Shown here piece after piece: positions 12,253-19,973 of a stretch of DNA of 24,327 nt. A program made the position numbers and the translations under genes. The notes below the pieces were generated by a model. That model saw nothing but the letters and a program-made list of their open reading frames with translations, made no database searches and was not told the DNA's origin. How positions within the stretch are numbered: the first letter of the stretch is position 1; each line of letters starts with the position of its first letter. Origin of the DNA: a virus; IMG/VR virus record IMGVR_UViG_3300009154_000274, positions 1 through 24,327 of that record; one strand, given 5' to 3'.

Positions 12253-12260
12253 AATAAATA
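12253..12260 (+). promoter_or_regulatory. Late promoter motif AATAAATA
   Basis: AATAAATA lies 20 bp before the ATG at 12281 and matches the T4-type late element. A TATAAT (12238-12243) is also present but lacks a good -35. Confidence 0.5.
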
Positions 12261-12280: not shown

Positions 12281-12529
12281 ATGCAAAAGAAAACCCGCAG
12301 TTTATTAGAAGAATTAGATAGTATGTATATCGAGCGTGATCAGCGTCATGTTATCGAAAATCGTGCCTCTAATATCATTTCTTCAGCTATTCGTTTATTG
12401 GAACAAATTGACGAAAACTATCCACCAGAGCAAGCAGAGAACCTTACCCGTAAATTAATTAATGCGATTAAACTCCGTAATCCAGAAAAATTTACTCGCA
12501 CAGTAAGGAAGACCGATGCAAATTCATGA
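12281..12529 (+). CDS. Small helical 82-aa phage protein
   Basis: Unrecognised function. The whole protein looks helical and charged: it opens with KKTRSLLEELDSMYIERDQRHVIE, continues with an amphipathic helix (NIISSAIRLLEQI) and ends in a basic stretch (NPEKFTRTVRKT). I believe similar proteins occur in other aquatic T4-like phages. It follows a late-type promoter and overlaps the next gene by 14 nt, so it is co-expressed with the late internal-protein candidate. AAAAAGG lies 14 nt before the ATG. Confidence 0.8.
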   Translation: MQKKTRSLLEELDSMYIERDQRHVIENRASNIISSAIRLLEQIDENYPPEQAENLTRKLINAIKLRNPEKFTRTVRKTDANS

Positions 12530-13613
12530 AATAACTAAGCGCCAGCGTATAGACGAAGGTTTATTGGGTGATGTAAAAAATGCTATTACTAGAAAAGCTA
12601 CGGCTGTTTATAAAGATAAAACACAAGCTATTAAAGACAAAGTAGCGGCTGTAAAAAACATTCCAACCCAAGCTAAACAAGACTATCTTGGCGGTGTAAA
12701 AGCTGCTAAAAGATCAGGCGAAGATAATAATCTAATGGCAAGAATGGCTGGTGTTGGTAACATTTTTACCAAAGCAGGCGACCGCTGGCAGGAAAAACAA
12801 TGGGATAAAACACAGGATACAAGAAATAGTCAAGCCGCTGATGCGGCTAAAATCTTGGCTAGAAAAGGTTTTAAAGTTGATACTACAACTCCGGCCGCCA
12901 GAGCACAAACTCCTACTAGAGTTAAACAACAAAAACTTGCTCAACTACAACAGGCATTTGATCAAGAATTTGAACTTATGCCAAATGCGGCTCAAATGCA
13001 TGCTCAGCAACAAGCAGCAAAAGCAGAAAAAGCAGCAAAAGCCTATGCTCCAAAAACACAACAAAATATAGCGGCACAAAATAAACAAATGAGTCCACAG
13101 TCAGGAATTAAAGAAGCACAAGTTGATCCAAATAAACTGGCCACTATGAAAGCAAGGGCGAAAGCTCCTGGTGTTACCCAACCAAACAATGACACAACAA
13201 AAAAAGATATCGCTACTGAATTTCCAGGCTGGATAAGGCAAAAAATACCAGGATTGGATAAAGCCCCGCCTGAAGTTACAACAAAATTAAACGGCATTTT
13301 TTCACAAATGAAAATACAAGCAGGAAAAAATCCTAAAGCAGTTGATCAAGCATTTCAACAATATGCTGATTTAGCATTATCTTCTGTAGCGCCGGCTCAA
13401 GATCAGCAAAGACAGCAAGGGCAACAAGCTCAAGGTGGAGCAGATCCTAGCGCAGGATATGCCCGCAATGGTATTGCCAACTCCATAGGATTAGACTCAT
13501 CGGCTGTTGCTGCTCTCCAACAGCGTATTATACAAAATAAAGAACCACTTAGATCCACAGATACTGGTTCTCCTACTGTAAATAAATTAATACAGGCGCT
13601 GTTAAAGAAATGA
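12516..13613 (+). CDS. Basic Ala/Gln-rich protein, candidate capsid-internal protein
   Basis: A 365-aa low-complexity protein, rich in Ala, Gln and Lys and without cysteine, with long predicted helices (residues 130-200) and a more ordered C-terminal third (TEFPGWIRQKIPGLDKAPPEV...). The N-terminus MQIHEITKRQRIDE|G carries an I-x-E|G site at 12-15 that fits the T4 prohead protease (gp21) rule. The short amphipathic leader resembles the capsid-targeting leaders of T4 internal proteins. A second IKE|A site is at 198-201. These suggest packaging in the head and possible ejection with the DNA. It overlaps its downstream neighbour by 4 nt (ATGA). The sequence family is not recognised; a core/scaffold role is an alternative. 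Confidence 0.75.
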   Translation: MQIHEITKRQRIDEGLLGDVKNAITRKATAVYKDKTQAIKDKVAAVKNIPTQAKQDYLGGVKAAKRSGEDNNLMARMAGVGNIFTKAGDRWQEKQWDKTQDTRNSQAADAAKILARKGFKVDTTTPAARAQTPTRVKQQKLAQLQQAFDQEFELMPNAAQMHAQQQAAKAEKAAKAYAPKTQQNIAAQNKQMSPQSGIKEAQVDPNKLATMKARAKAPGVTQPNNDTTKKDIATEFPGWIRQKIPGLDKAPPEVTTKLNGIFSQMKIQAGKNPKAVDQAFQQYADLALSSVAPAQDQQRQQGQQAQGGADPSAGYARNGIANSIGLDSSAVAALQQRIIQNKEPLRSTDTGSPTVNKLIQALLKK

Positions 13614-15559
13614 GCTTACTTAAAGAAGGCGGCAATGTTTTCAAGAACGATGATAAACAAGCTCTGACCCAAAGAATCAATCAAACTGATGTAGCTATTA
13701 CAGTTGATTGGTTAGAACAATTAACTGACCTCGATTTGCGCGGCGAGATAGATCCTGATACTGGCTATCCAGAACGCTGGTTAGGGAGCTCAGGTAAGAA
13801 ATCTACATCGGGAGATCTTGATTTAGCTGTCAATGCTAACGAAATCACCCAGCAACAATTAGTAGCAGAGCTGACCCAATGGTGTAATAGTCATAAATTA
13901 GATCCAAAAGAATATGTTAAGAACGCAGGCGGCCAAGTACACTTTAAAACGCCAATAGGCGGTAATCCAGACAAAGGCTATGTACAGACAGATTTTATGT
14001 TTATGAAAGATATGGGCGTAGGTCAGTTCTTTTTACAAGCATCACCTAATTCAAAATTTTCAGGTCAAGATAGAGCAGTGGTAGTAAATTCACTAGCTAA
14101 AGCATTTGGTTATAAATTAGACATGCGTCGTGGTATTATCGATCGTGCTAATGAAGAAGTAGTTGAAACGGATCCTGACAAGATCGCTAAATTATTACTC
14201 AGTCCCGGAGCGACAAAGAAAGATCTTACCTCCGTGGAAAACATTGTCCAGGCATTAGAAAAAGACCCTAAAAAAGATGAAAAATTAGCAGATGCTAGAA
14301 CACATTTCCAAAAAGTTGGCGTCCCATTTTTTGAAAATACAAGCACAGAACTTTATACAGAAGTACATTTTTTAGCTCGCTTGCGTGATCGTATTGTTAA
14401 TCAAGGCATGGAAAAATTAATCGAAAATACAGAAGTACAAGGTGGCAAAGCCAAAGGCATCGAACACATCGAAGATTTAGTATTTAGAAAAGGAACCGCA
14501 GGTATTAAGGAAGCACTTGCGGTCATTGAACATCTTAAAGATAACACAAAATCATCTGTTACAGTTAAGTGGGATGGCAAACCTGCGGTAGTGTTTGGGC
14601 GCGAACCTAATGGAACTTTTGTGCTAACCGATGTAGCCGGGTTTGGTGCTGTAGGCTATAATGGTATGTTTACTAGTCCAAAACAAATCACACAACATTT
14701 AGCTAATCGCGATAACGAAGCAAAAGCCCAAGGCAAGTCAGCTAATCGGGTGGCTCAGCTAGCCCCCATATATCAAACATTATGGCCCATGCTTGAAGCC
14801 GCAACTCCGAAAGATTTTAAAGGTTATATCCAGGGCGATTTGTTGTATATTGCAACTCCTCCAGAAGTATCAGGCGCTTTTGTATTCAAACCTAATACAG
14901 TGGAGTATAATATTCCAGCTAGTTCTAAATTAGGCGAAGAAATTGCCGAAAGCCATGTGGGGATCGCTATACACACTTATTATAAAGAACAAGGCGCTGG
15001 TAAAGAACCATTAAGCAAGGTTGATCTAAATACAGTTCCAGGTTTGTTATTAATTGAACCTATAGCCCCGCAAGAAAATGTTAAGCCTACAGATAGTAGT
15101 TTAGTTAAGCAATTGAAGAGTTTGGTAAGCAGTAGCGGAACAGCTATTAATACTCTGTTTAGCCCTGCTGAATTACGCCAATTACAAATTAGTGATTTAC
15201 CAAGACTATGCGTTGACTATATTAATAGTTTAGTCAAAGATGATTCTGTAGCAGACTTTGATCCCAATACATTGTTACCAGGATTTGGCAAATGGTTACA
15301 GTCTAAAGTGACTCCCCGCAAATACAACAACATTGTGGAATACTTACAAAGTCCTCGTAGTAACATGGACGGTATGAGTGCGGCGTTTACAGCCTTTGTA
15401 TTGCTACACAATATCAAGATGGATATGCTACAGCAGCTAGACCGTCAACACCCTGGGCAAGAAGGCTGGGTAATCGCTCACCCAGGTGGAATTACTAAAT
15501 TTGTTAATAGATTTGGCTTTTCCCGGGCAAATGCGGCCCAGAATGCCCCACAATCCTAA
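13610..15559 (+). CDS. Fusion of Pol-beta-type nucleotidyltransferase and ligase-like adenylyltransferase (DUF6267-like)
   Basis: A 649-aa two-enzyme protein. The N-terminal domain (about 30-230) has the Pol-beta nucleotidyltransferase signature: G59-S60, the D69-L-D71 pair in SGDLDLAV, and a third Asp, D128, in YVQTDFMFM. The C-terminal domain (about 285-649) has nucleotidyl-ligase motifs: I K320-W-D-G, III-like YIQGDLLYI (406-414), IV-like EGWVI (618-622) and V-like K630-FVNR. A long insertion separates III and IV. The second half resembles phage DUF6267 proteins, as far as I recall. All key catalytic residues are present, so activity on RNA or DNA ends is plausible. The N-terminus MSLLKE|GG offers an L-x-E|G prohead-protease-like site. 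It is coupled to the upstream candidate internal protein. Confidence 0.75.
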   Translation: MSLLKEGGNVFKNDDKQALTQRINQTDVAITVDWLEQLTDLDLRGEIDPDTGYPERWLGSSGKKSTSGDLDLAVNANEITQQQLVAELTQWCNSHKLDPKEYVKNAGGQVHFKTPIGGNPDKGYVQTDFMFMKDMGVGQFFLQASPNSKFSGQDRAVVVNSLAKAFGYKLDMRRGIIDRANEEVVETDPDKIAKLLLSPGATKKDLTSVENIVQALEKDPKKDEKLADARTHFQKVGVPFFENTSTELYTEVHFLARLRDRIVNQGMEKLIENTEVQGGKAKGIEHIEDLVFRKGTAGIKEALAVIEHLKDNTKSSVTVKWDGKPAVVFGREPNGTFVLTDVAGFGAVGYNGMFTSPKQITQHLANRDNEAKAQGKSANRVAQLAPIYQTLWPMLEAATPKDFKGYIQGDLLYIATPPEVSGAFVFKPNTVEYNIPASSKLGEEIAESHVGIAIHTYYKEQGAGKEPLSKVDLNTVPGLLLIEPIAPQENVKPTDSSLVKQLKSLVSSSGTAINTLFSPAELRQLQISDLPRLCVDYINSLVKDDSVADFDPNTLLPGFGKWLQSKVTPRKYNNIVEYLQSPRSNMDGMSAAFTAFVLLHNIKMDMLQQLDRQHPGQEGWVIAHPGGITKFVNRFGFSRANAAQNAPQS

Positions 15560-16773: not shown

Positions 16774-17180
16774 AATTTATTTGTAAAACCTTCTTTGATA
16801 TTACAGCCACAGGTGTAACAGGGCATTATAAATCTTCCCGAGTACCATTTCGAGATTTAAATGGTACTAATATCGAAAATGAAATATCATGGAATCGTGC
16901 TAGAAATCAACAGAGAAATTGGGAGACTATAACTCAACTAATAAGTCTACGAACACAAATTTCAGAATTACAAAATCCTAAAAAAGATAAAAATACATGG
17001 AGTTTTGAATTTGAATCTGAGACTCCATATGCGTTTGGCTCCCAAGAGAACCCTACAGAATTGTTATTATCTGACTCAGCAGGTGTTCCAATGCTAGTAG
17101 GATTAGGAAATATTAAAAATTTAGCACCATTATTAGTTGTGTCGGGCACTGATCAAAATATATGGTTTGACATATTATAA
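16770..17180 (+). CDS. Conserved-looking 136-aa phage protein, GTG start
   Basis: Unknown function. The N-terminus looks like a beta domain (FICKTFFDITATGVTGHYKSSRVPF), the middle is helical and basic (WNRARNQQRNWETITQLISLRTQ), and the C-terminus is beta-rich and acidic (TWSFEFESETPYAFGSQENPTELLLSD). The GTG at 16770 overlaps the previous stop as GTGA, with AAAGG 5 nt upstream, so it is coupled to the 84-aa gene. I recall related proteins in aquatic T4-like phages, possibly virion-associated; not verified. Confidence 0.75.
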   Translation: MKFICKTFFDITATGVTGHYKSSRVPFRDLNGTNIENEISWNRARNQQRNWETITQLISLRTQISELQNPKKDKNTWSFEFESETPYAFGSQENPTELLLSDSAGVPMLVGLGNIKNLAPLLVVSGTDQNIWFDIL

Positions 17181-17186
17181 TAAATA
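17179..17186 (+). promoter_or_regulatory. Late promoter motif AATAAATA
   Basis: AATAAATA lies 24 bp before the ATG at 17211. It overlaps the TAA stop of the previous gene. Confidence 0.5.
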
Positions 17187-17210: not shown

Positions 17211-17477
17211 ATGAGCGTCGAAGCCACTGAAATTGAAAAAAAGAGTCTAGAAGCTCATGTGGAGCTCTGCGCCGAACGCTACAATGCGTTGGAAGATAAA
17301 ATGACAGCCATGGGTGAGAACATCTCACATCTTTGTGTCATGGTCCAGGATGTTAAAGCTAGTGTGAGTAAATTAAATGAAAAAAATACAGATAGACTTA
17401 TCAGTTGGGGCATTGGTATTATTGGTTGTTTAGGTGCTTCAACTGTCTACCTTATAACACACTACGTTCTCAAATGA
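17211..17477 (+). CDS. Coiled-coil protein with C-terminal membrane segment (XhlA-like layout)
   Basis: An 88-aa protein. Residues 5-60 are a heptad-like charged helix (EKKSLEAHVELCAERYNALEDKM...VKASVSKLNEKN). Residues 63-83 form one transmembrane segment (LISWGIGIIGCLGASTVYLI) followed by a short tail. The layout is that of XhlA-type holin-associated or small phage membrane proteins, so a lysis or membrane-anchor role is possible; sequence identity is not established. It follows a late promoter motif, with AGGATAG before the ATG. Its stop overlaps the next ATG (ATGA), so the two are coupled. Confidence 0.7.
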   Translation: MSVEATEIEKKSLEAHVELCAERYNALEDKMTAMGENISHLCVMVQDVKASVSKLNEKNTDRLISWGIGIIGCLGASTVYLITHYVLK

Positions 17478-19314: not shown

Positions 19315-19599
19315 ATGAAAAAGATTCTAGTAATAGTATTATTAGCATTATCAACCACTTCGATGGCGCACGGGTATCACGGCGGATATTATTATAATAA
19401 TAATCAGTGGGTAGGCCCTGCGGTAGCTGGAGTAGTAATCGGCGGTTTGGCCGCAAGAGCATATTACACACCTCCTCCAGTTTATGTTCAGCAACCGCAG
19501 GTAATTTACATTCAGCAATCTATTCCTCCTGGATATGTTCAACAACAGATTTTAGATGCTAATTGTAATTGTTATCGTACAGTACTGGTACCACAATAA
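19315..19599 (+). CDS. Exported Tyr/Pro/Gln-rich small protein (94 aa)
   Basis: Residues 1-18 are a Sec signal peptide (KK, a hydrophobic ILVIVLLAL core, likely cut after SMA). Then comes a His/Gly/Tyr/Asn segment (HGYHGGYYYNNNQ), a glycine-zipper-like hydrophobic stretch at 34-47 (GPAVAGVVIGGLAA) that may insert in a membrane, and a Pro/Gln/Tyr-rich tail with C84 and C86 (CNC). It looks like a proteobacterial periplasmic/outer-membrane type protein, not a phage structural protein. It is first in an operon with iscU (1-nt overlap), driven by a strong promoter and an ideal ribosome site. Cell-envelope modification such as superinfection exclusion, or metal binding by the His/CNC parts, are ideas only. 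Confidence 0.8.
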   Translation: MKKILVIVLLALSTTSMAHGYHGGYYYNNNQWVGPAVAGVVIGGLAARAYYTPPPVYVQQPQVIYIQQSIPPGYVQQQILDANCNCYRTVLVPQ

Positions 19600-19973
19600 T
19601 GGCTTACTCAGATAAGGTAATCGATCACTATGAAAATCCAAGAAATGTTGGTAAGATGGATGCCACTGATAGCAGTATCGGCACCGGTGTTGTCGGTGCA
19701 CCTGCTTGCGGTGATGTCATGCGTTTACAAATAAAGGTAGAAGATGGAATTATTACGGACGCCAAGTTCAAAACGTATGGCTGTGGGTCGGCGATCGCTT
19801 CGAGCTCACTTGTCACGGAGTGGGTCAAGGGCAAAACGCTGGAGCAGGCTGGATCAATTAAGAATGCTGAAATTGCAGAGGAACTCTGTCTCCCGCCGGT
19901 TAAGATTCATTGTTCAATCCTTGCGGAAGACGCTATTAAGGCGGCAATAGAAGATTACATAAAAAAACAATGA
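19599..19973 (+). CDS. iscU: IscU, iron-sulfur cluster scaffold protein
   Basis: A 124-aa complete IscU, the scaffold on which [2Fe-2S] clusters are built from IscS sulfur and then handed on by HscA/HscB. All ligands are present: C37 and D39 (GAPACGD), C62 (YGCGSA), H104-C105. The HscA recognition motif LPPVK (98-102) is intact. The sequence is very similar along its length to E. coli IscU. I chose ATG 19599, overlapping the previous TAA by one base and giving the canonical MAYSDKV start; an earlier in-frame start would lie inside the exported-protein gene. The middle of the gene is visibly richer in G+C (about 50% over 19741-19860) than the surrounding phage DNA. It is coupled to iscA by a 4-nt overlap. 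Confidence 0.95.
   Translation: MAYSDKVIDHYENPRNVGKMDATDSSIGTGVVGAPACGDVMRLQIKVEDGIITDAKFKTYGCGSAIASSSLVTEWVKGKTLEQAGSIKNAEIAEELCLPPVKIHCSILAEDAIKAAIEDYIKKQ

Follow-up and report, generated by a model that had tools for sequence, protein, structure and literature searches.

A Pol X-like domain fused to a likely ligase-type nucleotidyltransferase of the DUF6267 family in a T4-related phage

A fused protein and its relatives

The DNA analysed here, in the following called the window, is the whole stretch of 24,327 nucleotides of the IMG/VR virus record IMGVR_UViG_3300009154_000274. It is a piece of a T4-related phage, in which UvsX, UvsY, a UvsW-type helicase, a gp61-type primase and a gp41-type helicase were identified with PHROGs. 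A single unbroken open reading frame (ORF) with an ATG start and without internal stop encodes a protein of 649 amino acids (aa; Table 1). Its C-terminal half likely belongs to the covalent nucleotidyltransferase superfamily, which includes ligases and capping enzymes, and is fused to a Pol-beta/Pol X-type domain, as judged from motifs and fold. An earlier note on this DNA had described the protein as two fused nucleotidyltransferases with all key residues retained. Both statements hold: motifs, conservation and fold agree, and GS59-60, SGDLD 67-71, D128, K320-W-D-G, E618-G-W-V-I and K630 are all present.

In Pfam the protein matched DUF6267 (PF19782) alone (residues 284-641, E-value 1.5e-35, 123.7 bits versus a cut-off of 27), and from this sequence match we file it as a DUF6267 member. 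Nothing in Pfam matched the N-terminal half. The PHROGs match was phrog_455, annotated as function unknown, and models of defence systems and of NCBIfam gave zero matches. A literature search on DUF6267 returned no paper describing the family, and the databases hold no description of it either. The protein is not filed as RlaP, nor as any known DNA or RNA ligase family. RlaP (PF10127) was rejected for the N-terminal half, which has no Pfam match, and the PF10127 model matches none of the fused-protein records; the phage ATP-dependent DNA ligase family PF01068 was absent among the Pfam matches of the C-terminal half.

The fusion is real. Using the fused protein as query we gathered 181 loci, some of which share a contig, and at 151 of them both halves lie in one ORF. 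At two loci (L107 and L108) two neighbouring genes each encode one half; these look like products of fission because they nest within the fused clade. Separate halves in relatives are therefore not the unrelated proteins that the earlier note had considered as a counterargument. One contig (L015:73-1996) contains a frame break between the halves, either natural or an assembly error. A search of 84,980 bacterial and archaeal genomes yielded no relative, and within the collections searched the fusion is restricted to viruses. The jumbo phage Atu_ph07 (L025:4043-5840) carries an unfused pair, with a small ligase-like gene (EKLDGS) directly 5' of a stand-alone homologue of the N-terminal domain. 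The small protein matches RNA_ligase weakly (E-value 0.002); by its length, it is also the 324-aa Atu_ph07 entry titled 'RNA ligase' that the DUF6267 model matched in Foldseek.

DUF6267 is present in hundreds of marine cyanophage records. It adjoins a HIGH-type nucleotidyltransferase in cyanophages and in the group of L098 and L101, and is fused to one in S-PM2, L099, L102 and L106. With HIGH-type as well as Pol-beta-type partners across phages, DUF6267 repeatedly pairs with a second nucleotidyltransferase. Two of these loci carry further genes of related kinds. At L099:2806-6514 two Pol-beta-like genes (SGDIDIMI and YGDIDLQM), recognised by eye and matched by no Pfam model, are followed by the DUF6267-HIGH fusion. 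At L098:6083-8944 a 953-aa protein beside DUF6267 contains a HIGH nucleotidyltransferase, DUF5661 and an NT5C-type phosphatase; its KptA/Tpt1-like match is weak and below threshold.

Table 1. Positions of the fused protein, its parts and its operon in the window
Feature	Position	Strand	Basis
Late promoter of T4 type, AATAAATA, at operon head	12253..12260	+	ATAAATA conserved before 82-aa gene
82-aa gene, first of operon, PHROG 'virion structural protein'	12281..12529	+	phrog_11854, E-value 9e-17
365-aa low-complexity protein, overlaps both neighbours	12516..13613	+	stop overlaps ATG at 13610
Coding sequence, 649 aa, Pol-beta/Pol X-type nucleotidyltransferase and likely ligase-type nucleotidyltransferase (DUF6267)	13610..15559	+	
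Leader MSLLKE, predicted prohead-protease cut after E6 (LxE↓GG)	13610..13627	+	conserved in homologues
Pol-beta/Pol X-like nucleotidyltransferase domain, residues 7-243	13628..14338	+	pLDDT mostly >90; Foldseek to Pol lambda, beta, mu and TdT
D69-L-D71, predicted metal-binding DxD	13814..13822	+	kept in 70-homologue alignment and in stand-alone Atu_ph07 homologue
D128, third carboxylate	13991-13993	+	kept in 70-homologue alignment and in stand-alone Atu_ph07 homologue
Interdomain linker, residues 244-283	14339..14458	+	flexible at 244-249 and 266-278, pLDDT <50
DUF6267 domain, likely ligase-type nucleotidyltransferase, residues 284-641	14459..15532	+	PF19782, E-value 1.5e-35; C-only model; Foldseek to ligases
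Motif I K320-W-D-G, predicted adenylated lysine	14567..14578	+	K, D, G invariant in 70-homologue, 71-DUF6267-domain and cyanophage alignments
Motif III-like G409-D-L-L	14834..14845	+	D410, L411 invariant in 70-homologue alignment; model strand 405-413
All-helical insert, residues 496-613, between motifs III and IV	15095..15448	+	secondary structure of models
Motif IV E618-G-W-V-I and motif V K630	15461..15499	+	invariant in 71-domain alignment, at least 90% in 70-homologue alignment

Motifs and folds of the two halves

Conservation was evaluated in an alignment of 70 diverse, non-redundant full-length fused homologues with 32-88% identity to the window protein. The N-terminal half carries the Pol-beta/Pol X signature, i.e. 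a GS motif (G59-S60), a DxD motif (D69-x-D71) and a third carboxylate (D128). S67 and D71 are invariant, and D69 and D128 are conserved in at least 90% of the homologues. The pattern GSxGxxxxSGDxD together with D128 is preserved as far as the stand-alone Atu_ph07 protein. An AlphaFold prediction of the full protein with the 70-row alignment as input provided two confident domains (mean predicted local distance difference test, pLDDT, of 90.3) and left residues 1-5 of the leader disordered. A Foldseek search of the PDB with this model found Pol lambda, beta, mu and TdT for the N-terminal half (probability ~1.0, best E-value 2.1e-3), such that the model assigns a Pol-beta fold to this half.

For the C-terminal half, motifs I, III, IV and V of covalent nucleotidyltransferases (KWDG, GDL, EGxV and K) occur in order, with their spacing stretched by a helical insert. 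K320, D322, G323 and D410 are invariant in the 70 homologues, and E618, G619 and K630 are conserved in at least 90%. A second alignment comprised 71 DUF6267 domains and included stand-alone and HIGH-fused members; here K-x-D-G, D-L, H, E-G and K-x3-R are invariant. The cyanophage members, which lack the N-terminal half, have the same conserved motif residues. Modelled alone, the domain reached a pLDDT of 95.3 and a predicted template modelling (TM) score of 0.91. In the Foldseek search with the full model, the C-terminal half matched a fungal tRNA ligase in its adenylyltransferase domain as well as DNA ligase IV. With the domain alone, this tRNA ligase again headed the PDB matches, and the leading ones also included DNA ligase IV and archaeal enzymes, namely a DNA ligase and RNA ligases.

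Structure prediction thus bore out the two-domain description, with a Pol X-like N-terminal half and a ligase-like C-terminal half, the latter with modest Foldseek scores. The top PDB matches of the C-terminal half are nearly all ATP-dependent ligases, but the best E-value was 4.3e-3 and TM-scores were ~0.2. Several results weigh against a ligase assignment: no match of this half to the PDB had an E-value <1e-3, phmmer and profile searches of the PDB tied DUF6267 to no ligase by sequence, and hhalign comparisons of DUF6267 with the phages' own gp30-type ligases and with the Atu_ph07 RNA ligases gave nothing. As the fold scores are modest, the assignment leans on motifs and fold jointly. In the models the all-helical insert lies just ahead of motif IV, and it may explain the low Foldseek scores.

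Late operon, leader and virion

The fusion gene forms an operon with the 82-aa gene and the 365-aa gene, and the reading frames overlap. Upstream of the 82-aa gene ATAAATA was found in 65 of 93 distinct sequences, compared to 5.3 expected from shuffling, mostly 26-29 nucleotides ahead of the gene; upstream of gp41 it was found in 0 of 30. The late block described by the earlier note is thus headed by a conserved late promoter motif, from which the fusion gene is predicted to be expressed late. A homologue of the 82-aa gene lies closely upstream in ~120 loci. Homologues of the 365-aa protein share the N-terminus MQIHEITKxQxxxEG, and by its sequence this low-complexity protein resembles an internal head protein that undergoes processing. 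The presence of a PHROG structural protein in the same late operon would also suit a head component whose enzymatic sites are mere relics. We regard this as extremely improbable, given that neither domain has lost any of its catalytic residues though many homologues are only ~32-60% identical. Elsewhere in the window a second plus-strand AATAAATA (17179-17186), just ahead of a gene at 17211, is probably another late promoter, and positions 19569-19973 encode a NifU-like Fe-S cluster assembly protein (phrog_8429, E-value 1e-42).

The fused protein starts with a short leader, usually 4-9 aa long, that ends in a putative cleavage site (L/I)xE↓GG (the arrow marks the cut). Among the 70 non-redundant homologues P1 is E in 70 and P3 is L or I in 69, P2 and P4 are free, and the leader varies outside P1 and P3. 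The pattern agrees with the (L/I)xE cleavage site of T4 gp21. No nucleotidyltransferase-ligase is known among the internal head proteins of T4. These proteins and Alt carry N-terminal propeptides of 10-20 aa that are removed by the prohead protease gp21, and they are injected with the DNA (PMC5694885, PMC7411985); a similar cleavage and injection is predicted for the window protein. Other DUF6267 architectures have the same motif before their first domain (KVLTE↓G, MIRE↓G, FLTE↓A, MLTE↓A and YITE↓D). In S-SM1 (L182:7932-10056) DUF6267 (T4-GC71) adjoins the HIGH protein T4-GC190, which begins with MKKFSAFLNE↓A, and this HIGH partner was detected by mass spectrometry in purified S-SM1 virions (PMC3037559).

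The late operon promoter and the prohead-protease-like leader suggest that the fused protein is probably packed in the virion head and injected. Several points speak against this. The S-SM1 virion list names the HIGH partner only and not the DUF6267 protein, and the leader is shorter than the capsid-targeting sequence of T4. In a 152-kb relative (L/I)xE was not enriched genome-wide (11 versus 7.2 expected), and this fragment contained no Peptidase_S77, of which two larger DUF6267 records have one. The earlier note had raised delivery together with the DNA; promoter, leader and the cassette partner in S-SM1 virions are in favour of it, while packaging itself is a deduction. A classical capsid-targeting-like leader is seen on a 205-aa protein that starts with MKNFKDYLAE↓S (L202:10566-11180, minus strand; G001 70566-71180).

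Proposed function and known systems

With the fusion, the motif conservation, the two folds, the late promoter motif and the leader motif as computed, we see an even chance that the protein is a nucleic-acid end-repair enzyme with two active sites that is made late, cleaved at its leader, packed in the head and injected, with RNA as the most likely substrate. For catalysis, substrate, packaging and injection we infer the following scheme. The fused protein would be produced late from the ATAAATA promoter alongside head proteins. The prohead protease would remove the short (L/I)xE leader and the enzyme would then be packed in the head. It would enter the next host with the DNA and be active before phage genes are expressed. 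There the N-terminal domain would put one or a few nucleotides on a 3' end, and the DUF6267 domain would load adenosine monophosphate (AMP) on K320, hand it to a 5'-phosphate and seal the break. The likeliest substrate would be broken RNA, e.g. tRNA cleaved by host defence nucleases.

The choice between RNA and DNA was weighed in the wider group of the window, i.e. 12 IMG/VR records of which 11 carry the Pol fusion and one (G011) the HIGH fusion. A separate PF01068 DNA ligase is present in 11 of the 12, T4 Rnl1 in G011 only and RlaP in none, such that RNA sealing is the more open niche in this group. With a normal DNA ligase already in 11 of the 12 kin, the balance tips slightly towards RNA. 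Three observations weigh against RNA: the 152-kb relative has no tRNA genes, most fused-phage records are without a clear polynucleotide kinase, and the fold matches of the N-terminal half are DNA and not RNA polymerases.

These matches, almost all of them Pol beta, lambda, mu or TdT, would fit a DNA gap-filling and sealing enzyme that mends gaps or ends of the incoming phage genome, and injection with the DNA would fit genome repair as well. A precedent is PgVPolX, encoded by gene 401 of Phaeocystis globosa virus, in which Pol X is fused to a ligase; it serves base excision repair and has been shown to fill gaps and seal nicks (PMC5537341). We consider a PgVPolX-like role possible but rather unlikely; the DNA ligase already present in nearly all records of the group and the tRNA ligase on top of the C-terminal fold matches argue against it. 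The ligase half of PgVPolX, a 1093-aa protein for which virion packaging is unmentioned, is a recognisable NAD+-dependent DNA ligase, whereas that of the window protein is DUF6267 with a helical insert ahead of motif IV. RNA repair, as proposed by the earlier note, is plausible and is not separated from DNA end repair.

DUF6267 might also serve these phages as replicative DNA ligase, and the N-terminal domain would then be an accessory. PF01068 was found in 0 of 6 Kyanoviridae records with DUF6267 searched (W02-W07), and the Kyanoviridae subgroup with DUF6267 is described as having no known DNA ligase (PMC7824862). The late-operon position of the fusion gene speaks against such a role, which we hold to be very unlikely; for the window's own group it was rejected because of the PF01068 ligase in 11 of 12 records.

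Since transfer of nucleoside monophosphates is common to both folds, one or both domains could instead modify host macromolecules after injection, by protein AMPylation or nucleotidylation or by RNA capping. DUF6267 accompanies a second, HIGH-type nucleotidyltransferase in other phages, and Pol-beta nucleotidyltransferases with a proposed action on proteins occur among polyvalent injected phage proteins (PMC5512222). No motif for protein AMPylation was recognised, and the pairing of a nucleotidyltransferase with a ligase-type domain is known end-repair logic, as for RlaP (PMC7824862). Host modification therefore appears improbable, and the AMPylation of host molecules put forward in the earlier note found no specific support.

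End repair by the fused protein would resemble the action of RlaP with Rnl1 or Rnl2, where a Pol-beta nucleotidyltransferase is predicted to restore lost nucleotides before the RNA ligase seals (PMC7824862), although these are separate proteins from other families. The marine cyanophage DUF6267 proteins (T4-GC71) share the C-terminal domain, its motifs and the location downstream of gp41, but are without Pol-beta domain and adjoin or are fused to a HIGH cytidylyltransferase-like protein. Trl1, the fungal tRNA ligase with the best PDB fold match, has no detectable sequence similarity to the C-terminal half; its adenylyltransferase domain pairs with a kinase and a phosphodiesterase and not with a Pol-beta domain.

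Tentatively, and with more doubt than confidence, DUF6267 may found a new ligase family: a virion-borne, injected end-repair machine of T4-related phages, fused to a Pol X-type polymerase in the window's group and joined to a HIGH nucleotidyltransferase in marine cyanophages, which it would also provide with the ligase that they are said to lack. The family now has a testable enzymatic function, and T4-like cyanophages, whose DNA ligase is reported to be missing, have a candidate for it. The findings further suggest that phages may bring a repair enzyme for nucleic acids into the cell ready-made and so counter host nucleases ahead of any phage gene expression.
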